Shown: positions 734-56,211 of the stretch, piece by piece
How the letters are laid out: every line of letters begins with the position of its first letter
How positions within the stretch are numbered: position 1 is the stretch's first letter
DNA from: an uncultured Clostridia bacterium
GTDB taxonomy: Bacteria; Bacillota; Clostridia; Christensenellales; Borkfalkiaceae
Length of the DNA stretch: 64,000 bases
NCBI GenBank assembly: GCA_947572415.1
Contig: CANPBT010000001.1
Location: 31,127-95,126 of the forward strand
Direction of reading: 5' to 3'
Translations under genes and position numbers: made by a program
The notes under the pieces: generated by a model
What the model was told of the DNA's origin: nothing
Databases searched by the model: none
Seen by the model: the letters and a program-made list of their open reading frames with translations, nothing else

Positions 734-921
734 GTTCACAAAAATTTACTTCTATTCTGCGAAGTAAATTTTTCGTGAATTGAAAGGCTCCGCCTTTCTT
801 TGCGCGACCATAAGGGCAAACATATAATTTAGTCGCGCAAATTCAATCTGCCGAGGCGCAGGTATGCGCAAATTGTGTGCGCTTGCAAAAAGTGTCATTT
901 TTGCGCGCGCCGTAAATTTAT
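734..921. repeat. Intergenic foldback region, family-B palindrome plus hairpins
   Basis: A palindrome starts one base after the khpA stop: arms 735-752 and 761-779, the left beginning TTCACAAAAATTTAC and the right ending TTTTTCGTGAA. It is followed by a small hairpin at 781-797 (GAAAGG/CCTTTC), a larger stem (TTGCGCGAC with GTCGCGCAA, about 799-839) and a third GC-rich stem near 868-884. No ORF or poly-U terminator is evident. This is one of several family-B copies that abut stop codons. Confidence 0.7.
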
Positions 922-3867: not shown

Positions 3868-4217
3868 AAGAGCGCGACGCCGCAAATAAAAAGCTGGGCA
3901 GAAAGGGCGAAAAGCTTGCCGTAAAATATTTAAAACGCGGCGGCTATAAAATTTTGAAGCGTAACTACGTAAACCCGTTCGGCGAAGTGGATATCATAGC
4001 GCAAAAGGAAGATACGGTTGCGTTCATAGAAGTCAAAACAAGGCTTTCAGACGTTTTCGGCGCGCCGTCGGAAGCGGTGAATTACAGTCGCAAACAAAGA
4101 TATATTTCGGCGGCAAAGTACTTTTTTTACGAACGGGCTATCGATTGCACGGTACGCTTCGACATAATCGAAATTTTTAAAGGCACGATTAATCATATTG
4201 AAAATGCATTTTATTAA
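3858..4217 (+). CDS. yraN: YraN-family (UPF0102) nuclease-fold protein
   Basis: About 119 residues from ATG 3858. The family has a restriction-endonuclease-like fold of unknown cellular role and is often found near rnhB and dprA. Visible motifs are LGRKGEKLAVKYLKRGGYKIL, FGEVDIIAQ and VAFIEVKTR, which carry the PD-(D/E)xK type Asp, Glu and Lys. An earlier in-frame ATG at 3825 would overlap rnhB by 43 nt; the later start gives the usual family length and has AGGAG 12 nt upstream. Confidence 0.88.
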   Translation: MAVEERDAANKKLGRKGEKLAVKYLKRGGYKILKRNYVNPFGEVDIIAQKEDTVAFIEVKTRLSDVFGAPSEAVNYSRKQRYISAAKYFFYERAIDCTVRFDIIEIFKGTINHIENAFY

Positions 4218-4380
4218 GTTCACAAAAATTTGCGTTGCAAATTTTTCGTGAGATTGTTATTGTCGTAAAATTGCTTAACGCGCGTGCGAGCTTCGCGATG
4301 CTTTGCACACTTTATTGCAAAAATTTTCAGATTATAATGTGCAAAAATCAATCCGCGCTTGCAATTTTTCGGCGTTAAAA
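4218..4380. repeat. Composite family-B palindrome plus family-C bulged hairpin (reverse orientation)
   Basis: Directly after the yraN stop comes a family-B palindrome (TTCACAAAAATTTGC at 4219-4233 and its mirrored arm to about 4251). On the minus strand it is joined to a family-C hairpin: stem-1 arms 4361-4368 and 4267-4274, AA bulge 4359-4360, stem-2 arms 4354-4358 and 4280-4284, and GTTAA bulge 4275-4279. A long distal loop contains a further nested stem (TTTGCACA/TGTGCAAA). The same architecture occurs before hslU and fakA. Confidence 0.65.
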
Positions 4381-4407
4381 TTAGAATAATGATAAGGAGT
4401 AATTTTT

Positions 4408-12067: not shown

Positions 12068-12600
12068 CTGAATTTCATGCAACTACTATTTGCGGAGTAA
12101 AAAAGGACGGCAAAACCGCGATAGCGGGCGACGGTCAGGTGACCATGGGCGAAAGCGTAATATTCAAAAACAGCGCGACCAAGGTAAGGCGTATCTACGG
12201 CGGCAACGTCGTTTTGGGCTTTGCCGGTTCGGTTTCGGACGCGTTTTCGCTGAGCGAGAAGTTCGAGGGTATGCTCAATAAATTTTCAGGCAACCTTATG
12301 CGCTCCGCGGTGGAGCTTGCCGAGCTCTGGCGTTCGGACAAAGCCGTAAGAAAGCTCGAAGCTTTGATGATAGTCGCCGATAAGGACACTATGCTTATAG
12401 TTTCCGGCACGGGTGAAGTAATAGAGCCCGACGACGGAATAGCGGCGATAGGCAGCGGCGGCAACTATGCCCTTGCGGCGGCGCGCGCACTGTATCAGAA
12501 TACCGAATTTTCCGCAGAAGAAATAGCAAAAAAATCGCTTAAAATTGCAAGTGAAATCTGTGTATATACTAACGATAACATTAAGGTAGAAACTATATAA
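12064..12600 (+). CDS. hslV: ATP-dependent protease proteolytic subunit HslV
   Basis: The 178-residue threonine-protease subunit of the HslUV (ClpQY) complex. The HATTI segment near the N-terminus holds the catalytic Thr exposed by removal of the leader residues, and GDGQVT and AGSVSDAF are family motifs. It is separated from hslU by 243 bp of repeats and hairpins, unusual for a normally tightly coupled pair. Confidence 0.96.
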
Positions 12601-12604
12601 TACG

Positions 12605-12650
12605 CCGCAAAAAGTAAGCGAAACGGCTTTCGCGTTAAAACTTTTTAAGG
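12605..12650 (+). repeat. Family-C bulged hairpin, copy 1
   Basis: Just after the hslV stop: stem-1 arms 12609-12615 (AAAAAGT) and 12640-12646 (ACTTTTT), AA bulge 12616-12617, stem-2 arms 12618-12623 (GCGAAA) and 12628-12633 (TTTCGC), loop CGGC, and a 3' bulge GTTAAA. Same architecture as the copies at 12734, 49406 and 4267 (minus). Confidence 0.6.
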
Positions 12651-12659
12651 CAAATAAAT

Positions 12660-12713
12660 ACCTCATTCGTCTTTGCCTTCACGGCAAAGCCACATACCCC
12701 CAATGGGAAGGCT
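12660..12713. repeat. Family-A (CTTCCCC/CCTCAT) dispersed repeat
   Basis: A degenerate unit: CCTCATTCGTC, a TTTGCC/GGCAAA hairpin, then a decayed CCCCCAATGGGAAGG arm. Related to units at 20552, 22290, 32836, 32970, 41371, 41909, 46845 and 56092. Confidence 0.6.
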
Positions 12714-12731
12714 ATAAAAATGAATAATGCC

Positions 12732-12830
12732 GAAAAGCGGCAAGGTTGAATTTAGTTCAACCGTTAAGCCGCTTTACGACAAAAAAATAAAATTCGCCGC
12801 AAATGTTTTGCGTAGCAAAGCATTTGAGCG
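12732..12830 (+). repeat. Family-C bulged hairpin fused to family-B-like palindrome, upstream of hslU
   Basis: Stem-1 12734-12741/12768-12775 (AAAGCGGC with GCCGCTTT), AA bulge, stem-2 12744-12750/12756-12762 (GGTTGAA with TTCAACC), 5-nt loop, GTTAA bulge, then ACGACAAAAAAAT. A second palindrome (GCAAATGTTTTGC with GCAAAGCATTTG, about 12796-12829) follows and ends just before the hslU ribosome-binding site. The copy at 49405 has the same spacing with compensatory arm changes. Confidence 0.7.
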
Positions 12831-12843
12831 AGAAAGGAAATCT

Positions 12844-14154
12844 ATGGATTTGACACCCAAGCAGATAGTTCACGAACTCAATAAACACATCATAGGGCAG
12901 GCGGAAGCGAAAAAGGCGGTTGCAATCGCGCTTCGTAACCGTTACAGAAGGAGCTGTCTTTCCACCGAATTACAGGAAGAAATCACGCCCAAAAACATTA
13001 TTATGAAAGGCCCTACGGGCGTCGGCAAAACGGAAATAGCAAGGAGGCTTGCTAAGCTCGTCAAGGCGCCTTTTCTTAAAGTCGAGGCGACGAAGTATAC
13101 CGAAGTTGGCTACGTCGGGCGCGACGTCGAGTCGATGGTGCGAGATTTGGCGGAGTGCGCAATACGCCTCGTCAAGGAAGAAAAGACCGCGGAAGTGAGC
13201 TTCCGCGCTACCGCCACGGCGGAGCGCAAAATTGCAAAAGTGCTTGCGGAAGCCCGTAAAAGCGAACGGGGCGAAACCGCGAAAGAGGTTTTCGAGCAGC
13301 AGCTCGTCGACGATATACACGCGGGCAAATACGACGGTACCGTTATAGAGATAGAAGTGAACGACGTGCCCAAGCCTTTGGAGCTTTCTCCCGGCAGCGG
13401 CGCGGCGATTGATCTGGGCTCGATTTTCAGCGGTATGGGCATGCACAGAAAGAAGAAGCGCAAAATCACCGTAAAGGAAGCGAAGAGCCTTATTATCGCA
13501 GAGGAAGCGGATAAGCTTATCGATAACGACGCGGTAAACGCCGAAGCCATAAGGCGCGCGGAAAACGACGGCATTATCTTTATCGACGAAATAGATAAAA
13601 TCGCGGGCAAGGGCAACCACGGCGCTGACGTTTCGCGCGAGGGGGTTCAGCGCGACATTCTGCCCATTGTCGAGGGATGTACGGTTATGACCAAATACGG
13701 CCCCGTCAAAACCGATTATATTCTGTTTATCGCCGCGGGCGCTTTCCACGTATCCAAGGTGGAGGACTTAATCCCCGAGCTTCAGGGCAGATTCCCTATT
13801 CAGGTCGAGCTGCAAAGCCTGACGAAAGAGGATTTTATCAATATTCTGACACAGCCGCAGAATTCGATTACTATGCAGTACTCCGCATTGCTTGCGGTGG
13901 ATAATATCGATTTGCATTTCACGCCCGACGCAATCGAAAAGATTGCCGAAATTTCCGAGGACGTGAATGCGACGAGCGAGGACATAGGCGCGCGCCGCCT
14001 GCACACCGTTATGGAAAGGCTTTTGGAGGATATTTCCTATAACGCGGGCGGCAACGATTATCCCGTCGTTCAGGTCGACGTCAACGCCAGATACGTTGAA
14101 GAGCATCTTGAAAATATTATCAAGAACCGCGATTTGAAAAAATACGTGCTGTAG
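12844..14154 (+). CDS. hslU: HslU ATPase subunit of the HslUV protease
   Basis: The AAA+ unfoldase (436 residues) that feeds substrates to HslV. N-terminal MDLTPKQIVHELNKHIIGQ is the family start; Walker A GPTGVGKTE is near residue 57 and Walker B IIFIDEIDKI near residue 240. The intermediate I domain lies between them. I set the start at ATG 12844 (GAAAGGA upstream); the open frame further upstream runs through the repeat. A family-B element begins at its TAG stop. Confidence 0.96.
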   Translation: MDLTPKQIVHELNKHIIGQAEAKKAVAIALRNRYRRSCLSTELQEEITPKNIIMKGPTGVGKTEIARRLAKLVKAPFLKVEATKYTEVGYVGRDVESMVRDLAECAIRLVKEEKTAEVSFRATATAERKIAKVLAEARKSERGETAKEVFEQQLVDDIHAGKYDGTVIEIEVNDVPKPLELSPGSGAAIDLGSIFSGMGMHRKKKRKITVKEAKSLIIAEEADKLIDNDAVNAEAIRRAENDGIIFIDEIDKIAGKGNHGADVSREGVQRDILPIVEGCTVMTKYGPVKTDYILFIAAGAFHVSKVEDLIPELQGRFPIQVELQSLTKEDFINILTQPQNSITMQYSALLAVDNIDLHFTPDAIEKIAEISEDVNATSEDIGARRLHTVMERLLEDISYNAGGNDYPVVQVDVNARYVEEHLENIIKNRDLKKYVL

Positions 14155-46844: not shown

Positions 46845-46893
46845 TTCCCAAAAGGGGAAGGTGGCTTGCCCTTTTGGGCAAGCCGGATGAGGA
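46845..46893. repeat. Family-A repeat supplying the thiN ribosome-binding site
   Basis: TTCCCAAAAGGGGAAGG, then GCTTGCCC/GGGCAAGC hairpin and GGATGAGG, whose GAGG is 6 nt before the thiN ATG. Confidence 0.8.
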
Positions 46894-49377: not shown

Positions 49378-49404
49378 GGGTGTATTTATTTAAATAATAA
49401 CGAC

Positions 49405-49497
49405 GGAAAACGCAAGGTCGGATTGATTTCGACCGTTAAGCGTTTTCGCGACAAAAAAATCTCACGAAAATTTTGTGCAACAAAATTTTGTGAACAA
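49405..49497 (+). repeat. Family-C bulged hairpin fused to family-B palindrome, upstream of fakA
   Basis: Stem-1 49406-49413/49440-49447 (GAAAACGC with GCGTTTTC), AA bulge, stem-2 49416-49422/49428-49434 (GGTCGGA with TTCGACC), 5-nt loop, GTTAA bulge 49435-49439, then GCGACAAAAAAAT and a B palindrome (CTCACGAAAATTTTGTG with CAACAAAATTTTGTGA). Spacing is identical to 12734-12775 while both stems differ by compensating pairs. Confidence 0.75.
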
Positions 49498-51162: not shown

Positions 51163-51234
51163 TTCACGTAATTTTGCTGATGAAAAGGCAAGGGAAACAG
51201 GAAGGGAAGACGTCGTCTTCCCTATAAATTTATT

Positions 51235-56145: not shown

Positions 56146-56161
56146 GTCAAAAAATAAAAAC

Positions 56162-56196
56162 ACACGGCGCATATTTCCGCAGGAAATATGCGCCGT
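56162..56196 (+). other. Strong hairpin immediately before the nifU ribosome-binding site
   Basis: CACGGCGCATATTTCC pairs with GGAAATATGCGCCGTG; loop GCA. No U run follows, and AGGAG starts 4-5 nt later. It may protect the nifU mRNA from 3'-5' or 5' decay, or balance expression (inference). Confidence 0.5.
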
Positions 56197-56211
56197 GAAC
56201 AGGAGTATATT

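Follow-up and report, generated by a model that had tools for sequence, protein, structure and literature searches.

The DNA upstream of hslU in the window analysed here (a 64,000-nt stretch from an uncultured Clostridia bacterium of the Borkfalkiaceae) contains bulged hairpins with an AA bulge opposite GTTAA, which raise the question of whether such foldbacks are regulatory RNAs of the genes that they precede or members of a mobile repeat family. A sequence-only reading of the window had proposed four copies of one architecture and had considered both a structured RNA and a REP-like foldback moved by an HUH-type transposase.

Anatomy of the element and its copies in the window

A strict descriptor of the proposed architecture (stem, AA, stem, GTTAA, stem) yields three matches in the window (the type A cores of Table 1) and no match when the sequence is reversed. 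Thus, three of the four proposed copies are exact, whereas the fourth (12609-12646) has a 6-nt bulge and represents a separate module (module B). Between the copies at 12734 and 49406, five base pairs are indeed altered on both sides (four in stem 1 and one in stem 2) with AA and GTTAA identical, as had been read from the letters. Likewise confirmed were the trailing sequences of the three type A copies, namely ACGACAAAAAAAT, GCGACAAAAAAAT and ACGACAATAACAAT located 3' of the cores at 12734, 49406 and 4368, respectively, and the assignment of hslU and fakA as downstream genes, which is supported by HslU-like and FakA-like Pfam domains. A second hairpin (hairpin 2), absent from the initial description, is found 3' of all three type A copies.

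The element begins with an A/T-rich leader (conserved A/T-rich positions at about -16 to -1 in 112 copies) followed by ACGCCG and by hairpin 1, which is composed, in this order, of an 8 bp stem, AA, a 7 bp stem, a UUNAN loop, GTTAA and a closing stem. Its 3' part consists of ACGAC, a short spacer and the variable hairpin 2, terminating in CGTGAACT or similar. The overall length is about 120 bases, or about 190 with an extra 5' hairpin. Folding z scores against shuffles are -5.7 for the 12734 copy with its hairpin 2 and -4.0 for the 49406 copy, and are not outstanding for the long-loop 4368 copy (-1.5) and the 12609 region (-1.6). Two solitary palindromes resembling hairpin 2 and lacking hairpin 1 are also present in the window, one at 734..779 (no strand assigned) immediately 3' of the TGA of a 78-aa ORF and another at approximately 56159-56200, 5' of an AGGAG motif.

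Table 1. Positions in the window of the hairpin elements and of adjoining features (strand "." if none is assigned)
Feature	Position	Strand	Remark
Type A core, hslU copy	12734-12775	+	Strict descriptor
Type A core, fakA copy	49406-49447	+	Strict descriptor
Type A core, yraN copy, long loop	4368-4267	-	Strict descriptor
Module B, 5' bulged hairpin (core 12609-12646)	12604..12651	+	
CCTCATTCGTC..GGAAGGCT palindromic repeat of another family, between module B and type A	12661..12713	.	
A/T-rich leader, type A, hslU copy	12714..12726	+	A/T-rich positions conserved across copies
Hairpin 1 with tags ATGCCG and ACGAC, hslU copy (core 12734-12775)	12727..12780	+	
Hairpin 2, hslU copy, TCGC..GCGA type	12794..12831	+	12 nt 5' of the hslU start (12844)
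A/T-rich leader, fakA copy	49383..49398	+	
Hairpin 1, fakA copy (core 49406-49447)	49399..49453	+	
Hairpin 2, fakA copy, TCACG..GTGA	49462..49493	+	Adjoins the fakA ribosome-binding site on its upstream side
Complete extra stretch at the stop codon of yraN (UPF0102): leader, hairpin 1, hairpin 2	4216..4390	-	Not present in G050
Hairpin 2, yraN copy	4251-4220	-	
Half hairpin 2 after the fakA stop	51163..51180	+	Whole element there in G050; probable deletion scar

Module B follows a related design (stem, 2 nt, stem, an NGGC-like loop, GTTAA(A) or similar, stem), its core in the window being AAAAAGT-AA-GCGAAA..TTTCGC-GTTAAA-ACTTTTT with outer closing pairs GCC/GGC. In 11 of 117 copies, a module-B-like hairpin precedes hairpin 1 by 34-45 nt, and at hslU the distance is 80 nt. 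B-type hairpins number 19 in all (6 of them being tandem type A copies and one doubtful) vs. 0.4 expected in shuffles. Since module B recurs 5' of type A copies, the pair upstream of hslU is most simply a single element of three hairpins, interrupted at 12661-12713 by a CCTCATCC-type repeat.

Several other repeats were observed in the vicinity of these elements. A palindromic repeat of the form CCTCATCCGTC .. GGGGAAGGCT occurs at 12661-12713 and 46847-46890 and, in several copies, immediately 5' of the hairpin element; stretches like 12661-12713 also precede other copies (e.g., at L003, L009, L152, L154). A further repeat, about 130 bp long and reading roughly AAACGCATATATACTTCGCAATAC .. CTTGCTCGTATCTCTGCGTTT, lies at or near stop codons (L206, L207, L212, L215 and L227, all after fakA) and fills the hslV-hslU site of the related genome G050 (L197), taking the place of the window's hairpins 5' of hslU. 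At L109-L116 of genome G002, a diverged hairpin 1 (GCGCAAGGCTGAATTTAGTTCAGCCGTTAAGCGC) is combined with a replacement of hairpin 2, e.g., by CCTCCCC..GGGGAGG palindromes. Head-to-tail tandem arrays of near-identical units of about 114-119 bp are found at L062 (G006), L167 (G046) and L181 (G053); as proof of site-specific insertion they were rejected, their junctions looking like duplications that include the flank.

Copy number, distribution and conservation of the fold

The expectation that a covariance model would reveal further copies was borne out both in the window's own genome and across its genus. A first model, built from the three window copies, gave 11 strong matches in the own genome (including module B at 12609 and missing the 4368 copy) along with weak ones, one of which (E 0.44) is in tandem. 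A second, two-hairpin model, built from ten own-genome copies, recovered 11 type A copies at E < 1e-11, now including the 4368 copy. By Pfam, the genes nearest to these copies include hslU, fakA, yraN, guaA, guaB, dnaJ, clpP, thyA, a DNA polymerase III gamma/tau gene, ybaB and rplJ; neighboring genes that we take, from their sequences, to be clpX, folA and dnaK are also present. In the genus, the element was detected at E <= 1e-6 in 43 of 93 genomes, each of which has between 1 and 34 copies. In a sample of 297 genomes from the order (10 in the genus and 287 outside), five were positive at E <= 1e-5, all in the genus and none among the 287 outside it under strict filters, and a looser search added a single weak match, in G036 (E 0.0076), which lies outside the genus.

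A 28-nt hairpin pattern matched 114 stretches in named genomes, 80 of which were examined and gave 89 matches (at least two of these, L266 and L281, being plain chance), 77 of them with at least 6 of 8 stem 1 pairs. By title, these 80 stretches belong mostly to uncultured Clostridia and Candidatus Coproplasma, with one from Candidatus Borkfalkia faecavium and one 5-kb contig from an alphaproteobacterial MAG that may be contamination. Exact matches to the same pattern were absent from viral contigs, and phage or viral carriage was rejected on this basis. A known Rfam family was likewise rejected, as no score in the window exceeded the curated gathering thresholds and the 12550-12900 region gave only matches far below them. 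Translation of hairpin 1 (a shared frame K-R-K-x-G-x-I-S-x-V-K-R in several copies) was discarded because frameshifts or stops interrupt it in other copies (e.g., L006 and L010). No paper on this repeat family was found among the best literature matches listed, a search whose scope mostly excludes subscription journals.

The arms of these added copies covary around a nearly fixed internal loop, in line with the initial prediction. In the ten own copies, 96.3% of alignment cells pair, and double changes occur in 16 of 31 pairs (shuffles average 10.4, with none of 500 reaching 16; slid structures 3 to 6), with AA and GTTAA invariant. Across 95 distinct genus rows, all 31 pairs show double changes, in an alignment fitted to the model in which some rows are weak matches. 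For comparisons over the genus, a set of 120 copies was hand-picked from lists of 99 and 85 matches by taking those of at least 60 bits and leaving out weaker matches, overlapping opposite-strand matches and duplicate loci. Seven of the 120 were unparsed (other bulges or long loops), and merging of identical hairpins left 96 distinct hairpins 1. AA is present in 94 and GTTAA in 88 of these, counts that lean towards the motif given that the parser sought GTTAA-like bulges and favored AA; the commonest loops are UUNAN. Unpaired loop letters that are more constant than the stems around them suggest that something reads them.

Mismatches provide an indication of which strand folds. A tandem G.A/G.A mismatch is present in 36 of 108 distinct hairpins 2 (and is missing from all three window copies), while T.C/T.C occurs in none. 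In pairs 1-5 of stem 2, G.T was counted 23 times vs. two A.C. Both biases fit a fold that is kept on the top strand, as either RNA or single-stranded DNA, whereas stem 1 is neutral in this respect since G.T and A.C are equally rare there (3 each among 672 pairs).

Placement beside genes and turnover between relatives

Genes were called on both sides for 113 of the 120 copies with a mechanical ORF rule that makes occasional errors. Between co-directional genes, 43 copies are in sense and 34 in antisense orientation (p = 0.36); the remaining flanks are diverging in 25 cases and converging in 11. Among the 48 copies with hairpin 2 directed towards the 3' end of a gene, 33 have the stop codon at -3 to 6 nt; for the hairpin 1 side the corresponding figure is 4 of 55 (p = 3e-11). 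When hairpin 2 is directed towards a gene start, the distance is within 30 nt in 37 of 71 copies, vs. 5 of 59 for the hairpin 1 side (p = 6e-8). In both comparisons, the hairpin 1 side is lengthened by the roughly 16 nt of the A/T-rich leader, and the counts are not fully independent because the rpsG sites recur in several species and look inherited. Either a choice of target or the survival of those insertions that do least harm may underlie this placement.

Such placement has to be weighed against a structured cis-regulatory RNA, a 5' leader of the following gene whose AA/GUUAA loop would bind a protein or ligand. Covarying helices with a nearly fixed internal loop are consistent with it, as are the many copies immediately 5' of ribosome-binding sites (the 37 of 71 above), the recurrence of the rpsG copies in several species (an exception to the otherwise poor conservation at orthologous genes) and a leader that is A/T-rich like a -10 region, promoter-like hexamers being found upstream of 26 of 112 copies vs. 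15 of 353 genic controls that were unmatched for A+T. Nevertheless, an RNA acting on its neighbor gene would need a single orientation, whereas 34 of the 77 copies between co-directional genes are antisense. Furthermore, the adjacent genes are unrelated (hslU, fakA, guaA, guaB, dnaJ, thyA, rplJ, ybaB), the window has no Rfam match, and the presence of an element at a given gene is mostly not conserved, the 5' copy at fakA being missing in 28 relatives. The structured-RNA half of the initial alternative, understood as a gene-linked leader, is not supported in view of orientation and poor conservation, and we consider a cis-regulatory role quite unlikely. The case is also a caution that covariation combined with a 5'-UTR position is not proof of a riboswitch-like RNA.

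A comparison of the window's genome (G000) with G050, about 91% identical to it in aligned flanks, revealed an extensive turnover of copies. Eight own sites were compared with G050 (two without an orthologue and one at a contig edge were left out) and 14 of the 17 copies of G050 were compared with the own genome, amounting to 21 distinct sites. Twenty of these are filled in one genome alone, the sole site filled in both being guaB-guaA (L016/L144). A clean junction is available at one site alone, the stop codon of yraN, where G050 continues from CTTATC directly to AATAAAATG and the window has 175 extra bases (4390-4216, minus strand; ends uncertain by up to about 4 nt), the stop TAA consisting of the final two letters of this stretch and the next A. 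There is no perfect target duplication at 4390-4216; an imperfect 4-nt repeat (ATTA/AATA), which may mark a short duplication, flanks the stretch, and the BLAST flanks of G050 vs. the window overlap by 4 nt. AATA also flanks the L151 copy, where the neighboring gene end differs too: a comparison of L151 with L194 shows the gene 5' of the element to be 13 C-terminal codons longer in G050 than in G000, and element and gene end may have been lost together.

The direction of change was argued for the fakA copy alone. Of 30 fakA loci, 28 were read (the two left out being partial genes), and the 5' copy is absent from all of these 28 other genomes, a pattern explained most simply by a gain. Some of the turnover is instead due to loss, as half of hairpin 2 remains at no fewer than three "empty" sites (the one after the fakA stop listed in Table 1, L196 and L189).

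These data also bear on the possibility of an old repeat that is no longer mobile and owes its patchiness to deletion between palindromes, recombination and interspecies gene transfer. Differences at 20 of 21 sites at about 91% identity would need a very fast loss together with a recurrent supply, and neither the gain of a copy at fakA in one of 29 genomes read nor the lack in G050 of exactly 4390-4216 is readily accommodated. The half-hairpin scars at empty sites, the tandem duplications and the rpsG sites common to several species do agree with such a history, which we regard as rather unlikely.

Probable mobilization, meaning and known systems

The search for a mobilizing gene covered the Y1_Tnp transposase family in 83 genomes of the genus. 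A match (fragments included) was obtained in 26 of them without association with the element, namely in 15 of 43 carriers vs. 11 of 40 non-carriers (p = 0.49). Among copy-rich genomes, G050, G063, G080, G107 and G108 (12 or more copies each) have a match, and none was detected in G046 (34 copies), G016 (16), G021, G002, G049 and the window's own G000 (each with at least 10). At 20 Y1 loci, some of them shortened by contig ends, the hairpin 1 model found nothing and the two-hairpin model gave one match with an E value of 0.18. The anticipated RAYT/TnpA gene with matching ends was thus not recovered, and no mobilizing gene was found within this search. A scan for a gene between hairpins 1 and 2 flagged 105 of 151 cases by a hairpin test that is too strict, hairpin 2 being imperfect.

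A REP element mobilized by a RAYT or another IS200/IS605-type Y1 transposase would share with this family the similar size, intergenic spread, subterminal hairpins, head-to-tail arrays and lack of terminal inverted repeats, and the five copy-rich genomes with a Y1_Tnp match would suit it. The similar occurrence of Y1_Tnp in carriers and non-carriers, the genomes rich in copies and devoid of a detectable Y1 (the window's own among them), the 20 Y1 loci without a significant copy, and a hairpin 1 without a GTAG tag argue against it. Given that draft assemblies may lack some genes and that a transposase may have disappeared, these results lower the odds of the idea, and we now hold it to be very improbable. 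Accordingly, the initial suggestion of a REP-like foldback moved by an HUH-type transposase stands with respect to the foldback (many copies in both orientations, a lineage-specific distribution, covarying arms), but not with respect to a Y1_Tnp association.

Overall, the best reading is that of a REP/MITE-like, structure-dependent element of unusual two- to three-hairpin design that is mobile or has recently been so. More specifically, we think it likely that this repeat family of about 120 bases is mobile and propagates via a folded single DNA strand that an enzyme would recognize; the case for mobility comprises presence/absence differences, one clean site and one polarized site. We infer that the fold is recognized by a protein and that the route is single-stranded. 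In such a mechanism, only those copies whose top strand folds properly would propagate, which would keep the pairing, and the fixed loop letters would be contacts of the mobilizing protein. Insertions would survive where hairpin 2 separates a coding sequence from its signals, and some copies would later be deleted across their palindromes. More tentatively, and with the odds rather against it, the family may represent a new class defined by structure alone, with three hairpins on one strand (two of which are built as stem / 2-nt:GTTAA(A) / stem), an enzyme outside Y1 that reads AA/GTTAA and the UUNAN loops, and a near-harmless docking between coding sequences and their signals.

REP-like repeats without a known transposase constitute a long-standing gap, for which this family provides a compact case with sharp predictions: a protein that binds the nearly fixed internal loop, a likely strand, and ends located to within a few bases at one site. 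Taken together with the fast turnover, these features make the mobilizing enzyme huntable by binding or by gene content. The family also illustrates how hairpins are added directly beside the stops and starts of essential genes.

MITEs such as ERIC are small, adjoin genes and occur in both orientations, as does the element described here; unlike them, it displays no terminal inverted repeats, and a classical MITE was rejected because the A/T-rich left end and CGTGAACT right end of our element are not complementary. In integron attC sites, RYYYAAC is paired with GTTRRRY at the base of the hairpin, and this candidate was set aside since the GTTAA of our element is unpaired within the hairpin, facing AA, and its GTT is not in a paired R box. 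IS200/IS605-type features amount to the top-strand mismatch bias and one clean site with uncertain ends, with no Y1 link. GTAG REPs and REPINs with their RAYTs are imperfect hairpins with unpaired bases that form multi-copy, intergenic, lineage-specific families, in all of which our element resembles them. It differs in the dissimilarity of hairpins 1 and 2 and in the lack of a GTAG tag and of a Y1_Tnp association; a RAYT-associated GTAG REP was rejected because of the consensus foot of our element, ACGCCG / ACGAC without an unpaired GTAG, and because of the missing Y1 association.

Placement near gene ends has precedents. According to the account by Di Nocera et al. (2013; PMC3733652), in which "Clostrid" and "Firmicutes" never occur, REPs sit near the 3' ends of ORFs, and GTAG REPs often provide stop codons. 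The CGTC-tagged REPs described there resemble our element in being short palindromic intergenic repeats, and they are without a dedicated transposase. Each consists of one stem of 8-9 bp with a loop of 4-5 nt and the CGTC tag, whereas our family combines two or three hairpins with a nearly fixed AA/GTTAA loop and lacks such a tag; a CGTC REP (with unpaired CGTC, TGTC or CCTC at one end) was rejected, since the complement of the 3' tag ACGAC is GTCGT and not CGTC. In the RepRanger paper (PMC12306157), E. coli REPs are located within 15 nt of stop codons, which is matched here by a hairpin immediately 3' of the stop codon; the sequence and structure of our element are different, and the same hairpin is also found near starts, always facing the gene.
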